Shown here in pieces: positions 45,287 to 51,165 of a stretch of DNA of 64,000 bases. The position numbers and the translations under genes were made by a program. A model generated the notes under the pieces. That model was not told the DNA's origin. It worked only from the letters and a program-made list of their open reading frames with translations, and did not search any database. The stretch spans positions 2,997,655 to 3,061,654 of the forward strand of contig NZ_CP100448.1 in NCBI RefSeq assembly GCF_024227715.1, read 5' to 3'. The DNA comes from Halomarina litorea. GTDB lineage: Archaea; Halobacteriota; Halobacteria; Halobacteriales; Haloarculaceae. The stretch's first letter is position 1, and each line of letters begins with the position of its first letter.

Positions 45287-45360
45287 GGGTCGGTAGCTCA
45301 GTCAGGTTGAGCGCTCGGCTGATAACCGGGAGGTCCGCGGTTCAAATCCGTGCCGACCCA
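45287..45360 (+). tRNA. tRNA-Ile (GAT)
   Basis: 74-nt cloverleaf: acceptor GGGTCGG/CCGACCC with discriminator A, D-arm GCTC...GAGC, anticodon stem CTCGG/CCGGG with loop CTGATAA (anticodon GAT) and a T-arm with the TTCAAAT loop. No intron and no encoded CCA. An AT-rich CTTAATTGTATT lies about 30-40 bases upstream as promoter. Confidence 0.96.
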
Positions 45361-45529
45361 CTCCACCGGGGACGCGTTCCCCACCAGACGACGGGCGCAC
45401 CTCCCCAGCCATCTAACTTCCGACGCTACCCGACGAGCGACGGGTACGCGTCGCTCTCCGTTCGTCTCCCGATAGCGACTGCGCTCCTCGGCGGGTGCGC
45501 AAAGAGTGAGTTTGCCGCGAGCGAATCGG

Positions 45530-45679
45530 CTACTTCGTCTGACTCCGCTCGCGGGAGACGTCGGCGATTCCTGCGTTCGCCGAACAACTCGGACACGCCA
45601 TCACATCGCCGTCGTTGTCGGCGAAGACCGTTGCGAACCGCTCCGATACGTGCGCATCGCAGTGGTCACAGGTCGGCAT
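45530..45679 (-). CDS. small zinc-finger protein (DUF7563-like)
   Basis: A 49-aa protein on the minus strand: MPTCDHCDAHVSERFATVFA at the start, then MACPSCSANAGIADV. Two CxxC pairs (residues 4-7 and about 29-32) make a zinc ribbon. This short protein type is widespread in haloarchaea, and I believe it corresponds to DUF7563, though the name is from memory. Intergenic sequence lies on both sides (tRNA-Ile and the CBS gene). Confidence 0.75.
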   Translation of the reverse strand: MPTCDHCDAHVSERFATVFADNDGDVMACPSCSANAGIADVSRERSQTK

Positions 45680-45838
45680 GTCCACCGGTCAGACGAGGGG
45701 GGGTTCCTTTGGTGTTGTGCCTGTCAGATTCCAACAAAATACCGGCAATCGGCGTACCCGAACGGGACGAACGCGCGTCGACGTGCCGACGCGATACCGC
45801 GCGGACTGCACAGAAAGCGACGGTCCTCCCGGACGCGA

Positions 45839-46249
45839 CTACGCCGGCGTGGGCGTCTGGACGTGCGAGAGGTACGCCGCGAGGTCGGTGGTGGTGACCA
45901 TCCCGATGAGGCCGCCGTCCTCGTCGACGACGGGGAGGTGGTGGATGCCGTAGGTGATCATCCGGTCGGCCAGTTCGTGGATGGGGTCCTGTGCCGACGC
46001 GGTCACCACGTCCGTCGTCATGTAGCGCGAGACGGCCGTCTCCGCCTTCGGGTGGCTCTTGGCGACGATGCTGACGAAGTCCGTCGTCGTCAGGATGCCC
46101 TCCAGTCGGCCCTCGTCGTCGACCACCAGCACCGACCCGATGTCGTTGTCCAGCATCGTCCGCGCCGCCTCCTCGACGAGGGTGTCGGGCGTGACGGTGT
46201 AGAGGTTCGAGGACATCAACTGACCGGCGAAAATATCGTCCATAATCAT
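45839..46249 (-). CDS. CBS-domain pair protein
   Basis: A 136-aa stand-alone CBS pair (Bateman module). CBS1 covers about residues 15-65 (ILTTTDFVSIVAKS) and CBS2 about 75-130 (GIHHLPVVDEDGGLIGMVTTTDLAAYL). Such proteins bind adenosine nucleotides and act as energy sensors for partner proteins. Two ATGs are possible, 46249 and 46243; a GCTTATC box on the minus strand about 27 bases upstream of 46249 favours the first. Partner unknown. Confidence 0.9.
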   Translation of the reverse strand: MIMDDIFAGQLMSSNLYTVTPDTLVEEAARTMLDNDIGSVLVVDDEGRLEGILTTTDFVSIVAKSHPKAETAVSRYMTTDVVTASAQDPIHELADRMITYGIHHLPVVDEDGGLIGMVTTTDLAAYLSHVQTPTPA

Positions 46250-46497
46250 CGTTAATGCGTGACTCTGATAAGCGTTGTCGTCGTGTCAAACTGGAGGCGG
46301 CCCGCGCACGAGACGCCTCCCGAGGACTCACTAGACGGGAAGGAGGTCCGTCCCGTCCGCGTGTTCGTCGGTCGGTTCCACCCGAAACGGGGGAGTTCTG
46401 TGAACGTGTACCATAGCCGTGGGGTGGGCTACTGTGACGAGGCGTAGTTGGCGTATGCCCTCTCCCAGACTCACCGGGAGAGTCAGAGAGGGGTAGG

Positions 46498-46713
46498 CTA
46501 CAGGTCCAAACAGCGAGCGTGAGCCTCTCGAAAAACATCGTCAAGGTGAGTAATTTTCGATCGGTTGACTCTACCACCCGAGAACTCACAGCTACAGTCA
46601 ACATCGGAACACTCGAAGTGAACAGTCCAGCAGTCAGGTTCGCTTGACACGCCGTACAGGAGAGGGGCACCACACTGTGAGCAGTTCGCATCGTCGCTTC
46701 GCCGCATGATCAT
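46498..46713 (-). CDS. small zinc-ribbon-like protein at edge of restriction island
   Basis: A 71-aa protein with CSQCG near residue 11 and CSDVDCSC near residue 35, likely zinc ligands. Its base composition is lower in GC than the surroundings and like the adjacent mcrB-like gene, which is divergent from it, 81 bases away. ATG 46713 is chosen; 46707 or the longer 46764 are alternatives. It may be a regulator or accessory of the island. Function unknown. Confidence 0.6.
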   Translation of the reverse strand: MIMRRSDDANCSQCGAPLLYGVSSEPDCWTVHFECSDVDCSCEFSGGRVNRSKITHLDDVFREAHARCLDL

Positions 46714-46793
46714 ACGACGATTGGTCGAGGTATCAGGTATGAACTTCCGGGGGAACCTCCACATTTATCAGATAGCGTACCACAGCAGAATTA

Positions 46794-48341
46794 ATGACGT
46801 ATGACGGTCCCGGCGTGTTTCGGGCACCGTACGGAAACGACGACGCACTAGAGAACTTCCATCGGACGGTTTTGGATGGCGTCGAGATCGAGACAGTTGC
46901 TCCACATACAGAGGTGACGTTCGACAATGACGTGGTCCGGCTCTGGGGAACGAAGGAAACCGTCGAATCATCTTGGTCGAACGTCAGTCCGGGTGACTAC
47001 CTCATCTTCTACCGAGACGGAACATACACGCACGCGGTCGAAGTCCTTGGGACGGAGAAGAACGAAGATCTCGGAAGACAAATCTGGCCGAATCACGAGG
47101 CGGACAAACCGTGGATCTGTATCGTCTACCTCGACGTACCGACTAGAATCGACGTCGACTCCTCGTTGGTCCACGGACTCGCCGGGTACGACATCGACTA
47201 TCCGATGGGTTTCAGCCCCCTGAACGACATGGGAATCGGTGGGCTCCGAGGGAAGTATGGGTCTATCGAGCAGTTCGCTACGGGACCAGAACGTGAAACC
47301 CTACCCGACATCGAAGTCGTTTCGGCACCATCGATCACCATCCCACCCGAAGCGATTTCCGAGTTGTACTTCCCTAATAAGCAGAAGCAGGAGATCACGA
47401 GTCAGATATCCACAGCAATCAACGCCGGGAAGCACGTCGTTCTGACCGGACCACCCGGCACCGGAAAGACCGAAATCGCTCGCCTCGTCTGTGAGTACCT
47501 CGCCAGTGAGTACGGAGACCACTACACGGGGTATCAAACGACGACCGCAACAGCGGACTGGTCGACGTTTGAAACAGTCGGTGGCTACATGCCTGATGAG
47601 GGGGATGGGGACCTCCAGTTCGAACCCGGGCAAGTCCTCAGACGATTCAAGCGAGACGGAGTGCAGCAGAACGAACCGCTCATCGTCGACGAGATCAACC
47701 GAGCGGACATTGACAAGGCGTTCGGTCAGTTGTTCACACTCCTCTCGGGGCACGCCGTGCAACTGCCGTACAAGCGAGCGGGTCGGGAAATCGAGGTCAA
47801 GTTGGGCGAGAACTTCGAAGGGACTCCAGAGGCACACGAGTACGTAATGCCCGCGTCGTGGCGACTGTTCGCGACCATGAACAGCTACGACAAGACGTCG
47901 CTCTATGAGCTCTCGTACGCATTCATGCGGCGATTCGCGTTCGTCCACATCGACGCACCGTCCGTCCCCGAGGATGAGGCGGGTCAGACGGCGCTCGTAG
48001 GAGAGTACGCGAACGTATGGGAGATAACAGCTGATGAGGACTCACTCCGTGCGGTCGGAATCGTATGGCATGCGACCAACACTGCTGTCCAGAACCGGAA
48101 CATCGGCCCAGCGATAATCAAAGATCTCCTGTCCCATCTAGAGCAAGCCCCTCGTGATCCAGAGGCGAGAAGACGAGTACTGACCCGAGCGGTAGTGAGT
48201 TACGTTTTCCCACAGCTAGAAGGCGTCCCGCGTCGTGGTCGGGTCGTTGAGCGAATCGCGTCGACGGGTGTCGTCGACGGCAAGGAACTACGACGGTCTG
48301 CGGGGGAGATACTCGCCGTCGACCTCGAACAGGATGGATAG
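46794..48341 (+). CDS. McrB-like AAA+ ATPase with N-terminal EVE/PUA-like domain
   Basis: A 515-aa protein. Residues about 60-113 (WSNVSPGDYLIFYRDGTYTH, then LGRQIW and KPWICIVYLD) look like an EVE/PUA-type fold, a modified-base reader. The McrB-type AAA+ motor follows: Walker A GPPGTGKT (219-226), Walker B with the McrB signature LIVDEINRADIDKAFGQLF, and sensor ATMNSYDKTSLYELSYAFMRRF. It probably moves on DNA by GTP or ATP hydrolysis and activates the nuclease encoded next, which overlaps it by 8 bases. Lower GC indicates transfer. Confidence 0.85.
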   Translation: MTYDGPGVFRAPYGNDDALENFHRTVLDGVEIETVAPHTEVTFDNDVVRLWGTKETVESSWSNVSPGDYLIFYRDGTYTHAVEVLGTEKNEDLGRQIWPNHEADKPWICIVYLDVPTRIDVDSSLVHGLAGYDIDYPMGFSPLNDMGIGGLRGKYGSIEQFATGPERETLPDIEVVSAPSITIPPEAISELYFPNKQKQEITSQISTAINAGKHVVLTGPPGTGKTEIARLVCEYLASEYGDHYTGYQTTTATADWSTFETVGGYMPDEGDGDLQFEPGQVLRRFKRDGVQQNEPLIVDEINRADIDKAFGQLFTLLSGHAVQLPYKRAGREIEVKLGENFEGTPEAHEYVMPASWRLFATMNSYDKTSLYELSYAFMRRFAFVHIDAPSVPEDEAGQTALVGEYANVWEITADEDSLRAVGIVWHATNTAVQNRNIGPAIIKDLLSHLEQAPRDPEARRRVLTRAVVSYVFPQLEGVPRRGRVVERIASTGVVDGKELRRSAGEILAVDLEQDG

Positions 48342-49695
48342 AGACGAACTTCTCGGGGAACTCACGCAGGACGTATTCGCCTACGTGATGCACGGCACGT
48401 TCTCCGAGCGACGGTTCGTGGGTGAGATTCGTCCGTCCGGTCTCGGTGAACGGTTCGAGGACTTCGAATCGCTGGTACGACTCCACTTCGTACTCCGGCC
48501 GGAGGTAGTCGACTTCGTCGAACAGCTCCCGCGCCGGATCCGCAGCGTCAAAACACAGACAGAGGATAGCAGGTCGCGGCAGCGAGGGCACGCCAGCGGG
48601 CGAGTCGATTGGTCTGCGACGGTCCGGGAACGATACTCCCGTGCACCCGGGGACAAGTCGTTGTTCGTCTGTGAGAACCGGACCGAGAACTACGACGTTC
48701 CCGAGAACATCGTCTTGAAGCGAATCCTCTCACTCGTCCACCGGACACTGGTTGATTGCCAAACCCACTTGCAGAAGGAGTACGACTGGGTAACGGACCG
48801 ATGGAAGGAGAATCTCGAACTAGCGGAGACGCTGATCGAGATTTTCGAACGGAACGTCCATGTTACCCGCATCCGGGACCCGACCGAGTACGAACCGACC
48901 GAACGAATGCTCCGTGCTGCAGAGGAGTCACGCAGTGAGATCTATCGTGACGCCGCGCGACTCTTACGTGAGTACCACGATGCAGCACGTGGCGACGAGG
49001 ACGCAATCAGAGACCTCTTAGCGTCGACAGCAATCACCCCTGACGACGACGAGACACTTCTCGAACTGTTCGTCCTGTTCAAATACATCAGAGTAATCGA
49101 AGAGCTACAGGACGAGAACTTCACGCTTCGGACCATCGAATCAGGGACACAGGAAATCGCTCGCCTCCAAGGTGGTGACAGCGAGTTCGTTCTGTACCAC
49201 GACCGCTCCGGAAGAAGCAGGGGACTGAGTTTCACGACGGCGGAACACGACAAACCTCGGGCCGAACTCGGACGTGCGGAGATGGTGAAACGGGAGGCAC
49301 AGGAGACCACAGCCAACTACTTCAGGGACGACGATCTGTCGCGCCGCAGCAATCGACCGGACGTCATCGTTCTTGAGGTCCGTGGAGATGACCGACGAGA
49401 GTACCTTATTACCGAGGTCAAGAACTCCACCCGCCGCGAGACGATTCGGCAAGGAATCGAAGAGACTCTGGAGTACGTCGCGTTTCTCAGACAGGATGGA
49501 GAGTTCGTCTTCGACCGAGATACCGACTTCTTCGGTTCGGGATGGAATGGATTGCTCGTCGTTCAAGACCTGAAAGACATGGAGACGGCCCGATTGGAGG
49601 ACCAACAGTCGATTCGAATTCTTCAGGCATCAGAGGTGTCAGACCGACTGCGAGACATCCTACTTGGTGTCCTCTCGAACAAACCATCTGACTGA
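48334..49695 (+). CDS. McrC-like/DUF2357-type PD-(D/E)XK nuclease
   Basis: A 453-aa partner of the AAA+ protein; its ATG overlaps the end of the mcrB-like gene. The C terminus holds a PD-(D/E)XK core: Asp343 (NRPDVIVLEV) and Glu361-x-Lys363 (YLITEVKNS), followed by a helix with EETLEYVAFLRQ. The middle is a long helical region (about 140-240). This arrangement fits McrC or the DUF2357 nucleases that accompany McrB homologues in modification-dependent restriction. Which of the two it is cannot be settled here. Codon use matches its partner and differs from the host. Confidence 0.78.
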   Translation: MDRDELLGELTQDVFAYVMHGTFSERRFVGEIRPSGLGERFEDFESLVRLHFVLRPEVVDFVEQLPRRIRSVKTQTEDSRSRQRGHASGRVDWSATVRERYSRAPGDKSLFVCENRTENYDVPENIVLKRILSLVHRTLVDCQTHLQKEYDWVTDRWKENLELAETLIEIFERNVHVTRIRDPTEYEPTERMLRAAEESRSEIYRDAARLLREYHDAARGDEDAIRDLLASTAITPDDDETLLELFVLFKYIRVIEELQDENFTLRTIESGTQEIARLQGGDSEFVLYHDRSGRSRGLSFTTAEHDKPRAELGRAEMVKREAQETTANYFRDDDLSRRSNRPDVIVLEVRGDDRREYLITEVKNSTRRETIRQGIEETLEYVAFLRQDGEFVFDRDTDFFGSGWNGLLVVQDLKDMETARLEDQQSIRILQASEVSDRLRDILLGVLSNKPSD

Positions 49696-49812
49696 CAGGT
49701 GAGCAAGCAACCCTGCTGGGTCAGCCTCTTCTTATCCGGAGACCGTCCGGGTCGCCGGACAATCTTTTCAATCAGATGAAACTTTTTCCCGTCCGATAGC
49801 CTCCCTCCACGC

Positions 49813-51165
49813 ATGACCACGACCGACGAACTCGCCACCTTCGCCGGGGAGGTGTCGTTCGACGAACTCCCCGACGAGGTCGTCGAGGAACTGAAGAAGC
49901 GCGTGCTCGACTCGCTGGGGATCGCGGTGGGTGCGATGGGCGCGACGCCCGTCGAACAGGTCCGGCGGACCGTCGAGGGGGCGAACGCCGACGGCGCGTG
50001 TCGCCTGTGGGGGTCCGACAGGCGGGCACCGTCGGACGACGCGGCGATGCTCAACACCGCGCTCGTCAGGTATCTGGACTTCATGGACTCCTTCCTCGCG
50101 CCGGGCGAGACGCCACACCCGAGCGACAACGTCGCGGCCGTCGTCGCGATGGGGGAAGCGGGCGACGTGAGCGGCGCGGACCTCCTCGCGGCCGTCGGGG
50201 TGGCCTACGAGGTACAGGGGGAACTGGCGTGGAACGCGCCCGTCCGGGACCGGGGGTGGGACCACGTCACCCACACGGTTCTCTCGGCGGCCTGCGGGGC
50301 GGCCCACGTCGCCGGACTGGACTACGAGGAGTTCAGGAACGCCGTCGGCATCGCGGGGACGGCCCACAACGCCCTCCGGGTCACGCGGACGGGAGGCATC
50401 AACGAGTGGAAGGGCGTCGCGAGCGCCAACACCGCCCGCAACGCCGTCTACAGCGTGATGCTCGCCGCTCAGGGGATGGAGGGGCCGACGAACCTCTTCG
50501 AGGGACAGAAGGGGTGGAAGCAGGTGGTGTCGGGGCCGTTCGAGATAGACCCCAGCCCCGAGTGCTCGCGCGTCTTCGACACGATGACGAAGCGGTACGT
50601 CGCCGAGACGTACGCCCAGTCGGCCGTCGAGGGCATCATCGAACTCGCGACGGCACACGACGTGGACCCCGGCGAGGTGGTCGCCGTCCGCCTCGACACC
50701 TTCGCCGGGGCGAAACTCATCATCGGAGGCGGCGAGGGGTCGCGCTACGAGGTGGAGACGAAGGCGCAGGCCGACCACTCGCTGCCCTACATGCTCGCGG
50801 CGGCGCTCATCGACCGCGAGATGGGCGTCGACGCGTACGACCCGAAGCGCATCCGCCGCGAGGACGTCCAGACCCTCCTCCGGACGGTCGACGTCGAGGA
50901 GGACCCCGCGCTCACCGACCGCTTCGAGGCCGGCGAGATGCCCGCACACCTCGAGGTGGAACTCGCCGACGGGACGGTCCACCGCGTCGAGAAGGCCGAC
51001 TTCGCGGGCCACCCGAACAACCCGATGTCGTGGGAGGACGTGGTGGCGAAGTTCGAGTCACTCACGGACGGGCGCTACGACGCCGCTCACCGTGAGGCCG
51101 TCGTCGAGACGGTCCGCACCCTCGAGGACCACGACGTCTCGGACCTCGTCGCCCTCCTCGACTGA
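49813..51165 (+). CDS. MmgE/PrpD family protein
   Basis: A 450-aa protein of the 2-methylcitrate dehydratase (PrpD)/MmgE family. Landmarks are LKKRVLDSLGIAVGAM, the conserved RYLDFMDSFL and HPSDNVAAVVAMGE, and KADHSLPYMLAAALID-like sequence (QADHSLPYMLAAALID) at about residue 320. PrpD proteins dehydrate 2-methylcitrate; others in this family act on citrate or remain unassigned. No methylcitrate synthase or lyase gene is nearby, so the substrate is open. A ComA-type gene follows after 71 bases on the same strand. Confidence 0.88.
   Translation: MTTTDELATFAGEVSFDELPDEVVEELKKRVLDSLGIAVGAMGATPVEQVRRTVEGANADGACRLWGSDRRAPSDDAAMLNTALVRYLDFMDSFLAPGETPHPSDNVAAVVAMGEAGDVSGADLLAAVGVAYEVQGELAWNAPVRDRGWDHVTHTVLSAACGAAHVAGLDYEEFRNAVGIAGTAHNALRVTRTGGINEWKGVASANTARNAVYSVMLAAQGMEGPTNLFEGQKGWKQVVSGPFEIDPSPECSRVFDTMTKRYVAETYAQSAVEGIIELATAHDVDPGEVVAVRLDTFAGAKLIIGGGEGSRYEVETKAQADHSLPYMLAAALIDREMGVDAYDPKRIRREDVQTLLRTVDVEEDPALTDRFEAGEMPAHLEVELADGTVHRVEKADFAGHPNNPMSWEDVVAKFESLTDGRYDAAHREAVVETVRTLEDHDVSDLVALLD

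Follow-up and report, generated by a model that had tools for sequence, protein, structure and literature searches.

A predicted McrBC-type restriction cassette of haloarchaea with a recurrent, divergently transcribed zinc protein gene

A three-gene cassette and its distribution

We describe a compact cassette of three genes in a 64,000-nucleotide stretch of the Halomarina litorea genome (the window): a gene for an McrB-type AAA+ protein (B), a gene for an McrC-like partner (C) and, divergently transcribed from B, a gene for a small zinc protein. Judged from its sequence, the B-C pair is a type IV restriction system like the McrBC of Thermococcus gammatolerans (TgMcrBC), a kind that is already known, with activity predicted. 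The zinc gene, on the other hand, is an unexpected part of the cassette: systems of this class are usually described as having two components, and here a third one recurs. In the open-licence full texts that we searched, we found no report of a constant zinc gene with McrBC. PADLOC lacks a model specific to the B protein and gave no match for C or the zinc protein.

The zinc gene lies on the minus strand at 46498-46713 (product of ~71 residues; family profile E 9.9e-27). It is followed on the plus strand by B at 46794-48341 (515 residues; assigned by alignment, profile and fold) and C at 48334-49695 (453 residues; alignment and fold), so that the zinc ORF, the AAA+ gene and the partner sit where the first-pass annotation of this DNA had placed them. 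The eight-base overlap that it gave for the B stop and C start is exact (48334-48341, plus strand), and the identical overlap is retained in most homologous loci. Its description of a low-GC island also holds, as GC drops to 0.53-0.61 over ~46250-49750 against ~0.65-0.72 on both flanks (~0.68 for the surroundings overall). A weak terminator-like hairpin from a consensus scan stands 3' of C, at 49745-49760 on the plus strand.

Among 292 Halobacteria, motor relatives occur in 147 genomes and partner relatives in 101, while the short type, in which reader and motor together take up ~515 residues, is present in 26 genomes including H. litorea. The zinc gene was found at all 26 short-type loci. It is head-to-head near the B start in 24 of the 26, 78-130 bp away in those loci whose start codons could be assigned; in the other two it lies 1.5 kb off (L091) or on the 3' side (L107). 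One locus (G073) is divided between two contigs, with the zinc gene adjoining the N-terminal half. Apparent absences at L106 and L109 were rejected: the gene had been overlooked by tblastn and was recovered by an ORF scan. A scan of GTDB r220 returned nine short-type loci, each with the zinc gene (9/9), and three new species with the cassette, namely Natronomonas gomsonensis, Halapricum sp. CBA1109 and Halonotius pteroides. None of the 71 other McrBC loci checked has the gene. When genome contigs were scanned, the single-protein query P0002 gave no match and an alignment query gave the relatives; a scan of viral contigs returned two distant motors only, and no relatives of P0003 were found in phage records.

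The earlier proposal that the zinc protein belongs with the pair was to fall if the two never co-occurred, and the survey gave the reverse. The arrangement is not peculiar to this haloarchaeon: at least 29 genomes of haloarchaea have it, with flanks that represent at least nine genomic contexts (by shared neighbour genes, grouped by eye). Protein distances of the zinc protein correlate with those of B (r 0.66) and C (r 0.72; p 0.0002), to which species history contributes in part. Two more distant systems with a reader of this kind, L127 (42%) and the nanohaloarchaeal L187 (45%), lack the zinc gene. The B-C pair can thus exist without the zinc gene, which is a trait of one clade.

The McrB-type protein

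The motor of B covers about residues 184-490 (47343-48263, plus strand) and is recognised by motifs, profile and fold. In an alignment of 24 B relatives, the Walker A residues GPPGTGKT are invariant, the Walker B segment is of the DEINRADID type found in the window protein, and the first and last residues of its NxxD motif (N363-S-Y-D366) are invariant, as expected of an McrB-type motor. The best PDB profile matches of the motor are the McrB proteins of T. gammatolerans (5.9e-21) and E. coli (8.9e-19), and the motor in the predicted model (pLDDT of B, 85.8) aligns to them with Z of 15.3 and 16.8, respectively.

For the N-terminal 165 residues, the best PDB profile match is the N-terminal domain of TgMcrB (6p0f; E=1e-4). 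The model aligns to this structure with a Z of 16.1 and an rmsd of 2.6 over 152 of 175 residues, which identifies residues 4-164 (46803-47285, plus strand) as a reader with the TgMcrB fold; five of its aromatic residues (W51, W61, Y73, W98 and W107) are invariant in the B alignment. The TgMcrB domain has been described as a YTH domain that reads N6-methyladenine (m6A), and was reported to bind m6A DNA (PMC7897488, PMC7641849). Pfam EVE (PF01878) does not match the window protein and matches 6 of 22 relatives weakly (best E 0.025). The fusion of an McrB motor to a modified-base reader of the PUA superfamily, read from the bare sequence in the first-pass annotation, is supported by profile and fold. 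Its more specific assignment of an EVE/PUA-like reader at residues 60-113 named the right superfamily and missed both the extent and the nearest family, which is the YTH-like domain of TgMcrB and not canonical EVE.

Two loci (L110, L115) have a B gene that is broken across frames, possibly by decay, sequencing error or switching. Some long haloarchaeal McrBs (L188, L195, L206) appear to carry two reader regions before the motor, one YTH-like and one PUA/EVE-like, the second recognised by eye.

The McrC-like partner

The nuclease core that had been proposed for the partner, D343 ... E361-x-K363 (49360-49422, plus strand), proved invariant in 26 aligned relatives, and Pfam PDDEXK_9 matches 9 of the 26 family members weakly (E 0.0015). 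The predicted model is modest (pLDDT 68.5); nevertheless, its C-terminal half has the strand-helix order of a PD-(D/E)XK domain, and by fold it resembles Can2 (Z 8.5) as well as the nuclease domain of McrC (6hz4_N; Z 7.3, 133 residues). Invariant residues, model order and fold matches together identify a C-terminal PD-(D/E)XK nuclease like that of McrC. Over the whole chain, McrC 7vsr_M is matched with a Z of 8.1 but an rmsd of 13.8. The partner has no Pfam match to McrC or to DUF2357, the type of N-terminal domain by which McrC docks on McrB; a PDB profile search with it gave no match, and Foldseek with the weak model returned nothing convincing, McrC having turned up only in the later fold comparison. 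The partner takes the place of McrC in the system, and we call it McrC-like by role, leaving its descent aside.

One locus (L179) has a C gene broken across frames, for which decay, sequencing error or switching may account. Also seen were several stand-alone copies of the partner's C-terminal nuclease part, some with stops (G130, G132, G264, G192).

Comparison with known systems

The closest known system is TgMcrBC (PDB 6p0f, 6ut5), in which, likewise, a YTH-like reader is joined straight to the AAA+ motor of McrB and the partner has a PD-(D/E)XK nuclease. It differs in that its reader is only 18% identical, and the conserved divergent zinc gene is, among the haloarchaeal loci surveyed, restricted to one clade. 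EVE-McrB and other haloarchaeal long-type McrBC systems have related motors (~40-58%) and partners (~30-57%), but their McrB is longer, has additional reader regions, and comes without a zinc gene. E. coli McrBC shares the motor fold and motifs and the two-gene B-C order, whereas its reader is DUF3578 (PMC7641849) and its partner is unmatched by sequence. CoCoNuTs are McrBC relatives of which some have zinc-ribbon parts; unlike the cassette they have NxD instead of NxxD, coiled coils and many genes, and they are described as nearly absent in archaea (PMC11090510).

Methylated adenine as the probable target

A system that attacks m6A DNA is expected in hosts that seldom make m6A themselves, and N6-methyltransferases of family PF02384 were found in 6 of the 26 cassette genomes, compared to 156 of 266 others (Fisher p=0.0007). 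The difference is retained within the 13 informative genera, where 5 of 22 cassette genomes have the family and 10.1 would be expected (p=0.008). The cassette class was the planned test among three McrBC classes compared for methyltransferase content. Genomes with long-type McrBC show no such depletion (17 of 34, with 17.8 expected), and those with EVE-type McrBC have more than expected within genus (23 of 32 vs 17.4; one-sided p 0.012). These numbers are correlational, genome size was not among the factors compared, and PF02384 misses some m6A enzymes; one of the six methyltransferase-bearing cassette genomes is at threshold (8.8e-11). The H. litorea genome itself has no PF02384 or PF02086 match and one match to PF01555, a family that includes both m4C and m6A enzymes.

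A depletion that goes with the cassette and is absent with other McrBC types fits an m6A target, and we conclude that the cassette McrBC probably attacks DNA with methylated adenine. Readers of the EVE/YTH superfamily bind various modified bases (PMC7641849, PMC7897488), and the target might instead be 5mC, 5hmC, 4mC, phosphorothioate or RNA. We regard this as unlikely, however, as the nearest relative of the reader is the m6A-reading domain of TgMcrB and the methyltransferase depletion is confined to the cassette genomes. A concrete and testable target prediction is thus derived from genome content alone, in a group of archaea for which genetic tools exist; it bears on the difficulty of introducing methylated E. 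coli DNA into some haloarchaea.

The zinc protein and its promoter region

The zinc ORF is open to 46764. We place its start at M18 (46713), which probably gives a protein of 71 residues, because homologs begin there and because the resulting 80-bp gap to the B start (46714-46793) fits the 78-130 bp seen elsewhere. Its cysteines form the strings CSQCG and CSDVDCSC, corresponding to C11xxC14G ... C35x4C40, and W29 is invariant. CPxCG-related small zinc proteins are defined by fewer than 100 residues, one CxxCG-like pattern and, 7-40 residues away, a second pair of Cys or His 2-3 residues apart; the protein agrees in size, with C35, C40 and C42 off the exact spacing, and the spacing differs among relatives. 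The family profile is too divergent for a pattern scan.

In an alignment of 22 intergenic regions inspected by eye, putative archaeal TATA-like elements were seen for both genes: CATTTATCA at 46762-46770 for B, and GTTCATACC on the minus strand at ~46736-46744 for the zinc gene. The putative divergent promoters are ~20-25 bp apart. No conserved palindromic operator was seen by eye between the divergent starts in these 22 regions.

Role of the zinc protein

Based on the domains and their likeness to McrBC, reading of a modified base, a ring motor and a nuclease are all supported. In the mechanism that we propose, the AAA+ protein would form a ring, recognise a modified base, most likely m6A, through its YTH-like N-terminal domain and translocate DNA with its motor, while the McrC-like partner, made from the overlapping start, would dock on the ring and cut with its PD-(D/E)XK site. 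The zinc protein, transcribed divergently from the common 80-bp region, would most likely act as a modulator, whether by regulating transcription locally or by binding the complex or its DNA. We consider this combined reading of reader, motor, nuclease and modulator to be reasonably likely as a whole. For local regulation there is a precedent in Brz, a small CPxCG zinc protein that controls the neighbouring bop gene in haloarchaea (PMC2253796). The cassette protein resembles proteins of the Brz type in size, in cysteine motif and in adjoining a possible target gene; Brz has the same orientation as its target, however, whereas the cassette gene is divergent. The zinc protein is thus probably a regulator of, or an accessory to, McrBC. 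We rank regulation or modulation first, and antagonism and a subunit role next, although the data do not separate them.

As an antagonist, the zinc protein would restrain restriction in an antitoxin-like or restriction-alleviation-like manner, a safeguard that would be needed upon entry of the cassette into an m6A-bearing cell or upon self-methylation. It evolves faster than its neighbours (mean identity 0.41 vs 0.59 for B and 0.62 for C), and the restriction alleviation family Lar (PF14354) gives weak matches (E up to 1, best 0.0031) to 7 of 31 family members, the zinc protein of the window not among them. Other zinc ribbons match no worse than Lar, which may therefore reflect the ribbon alone. 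Further, eight strong paralogs are encoded away from the cassette (L117-L122, L260, L265), and each has a type I or type IIG/DrmMI-like methyltransferase gene no more than 10 kb away. A search of plasmid records with one paralog found no relatives. These paralogs, of which two are broken or split (L121, L260) and one is incomplete (L265), usually share small neighbours in a conserved operon that includes a 78-aa protein resembling ribosomal protein L21e by eye. As R-M genes and paralog operons may share islands, the link to R-M may run through the island and is an association only; two further strong homologs (L123, L124) have no R-M neighbour that we could see. Near HsdM there are also weaker zinc ribbons (L261-L264), perhaps of a different family. 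On balance, we think antagonism improbable.

We put forward, as a tentative and rather unlikely idea, that the zinc family is a shared modulator of DNA-methylation-based immunity in haloarchaea, accompanying both makers of m6A (type I, IIG) and the m6A-attacking McrBC and setting when restriction is allowed. If true, R-M and anti-m6A restriction would have a control step in common.

Somewhat less probable than antagonism is a role of the zinc protein as a third McrBC subunit, structural or DNA-binding, contributing for instance site specificity as the second reader of the long type would. Co-occurrence in 26 of 26 loci agrees with this, as do long-type McrBs with a second PUA/EVE-like region (by eye) between YTH-like domain and motor and without a zinc gene. 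On the other hand, the zinc gene has its own divergent, putative promoter and is not co-translated with B and C, and we found no McrB, long McrBs included, to which the zinc domain is fused. That the gene is a functionally unlinked passenger of the insertion site is highly improbable: haloarchaea have very many small zinc proteins of the CPxCG kind (PMC2253796), but this one follows the cassette through at least nine contexts with its cysteines and tryptophan conserved, and other McrBC types lack it.

Insertion site

The cassette lies between tRNA-Ile (45287-45361, plus strand), the upstream edge of a variable insertion site at 45287-49813, and an MmgE/PrpD gene. Two congeners (L275, L276) also lack the CBS-domain gene that stands here at 45839-46249. 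Both have the same two borders and other gene content: one has a TnpB-like gene together with PhoX, and the second has a glycosyltransferase together with GtrA. This variation, together with low GC and changing contexts, indicates that the cassette is mobile and horizontally transferred.
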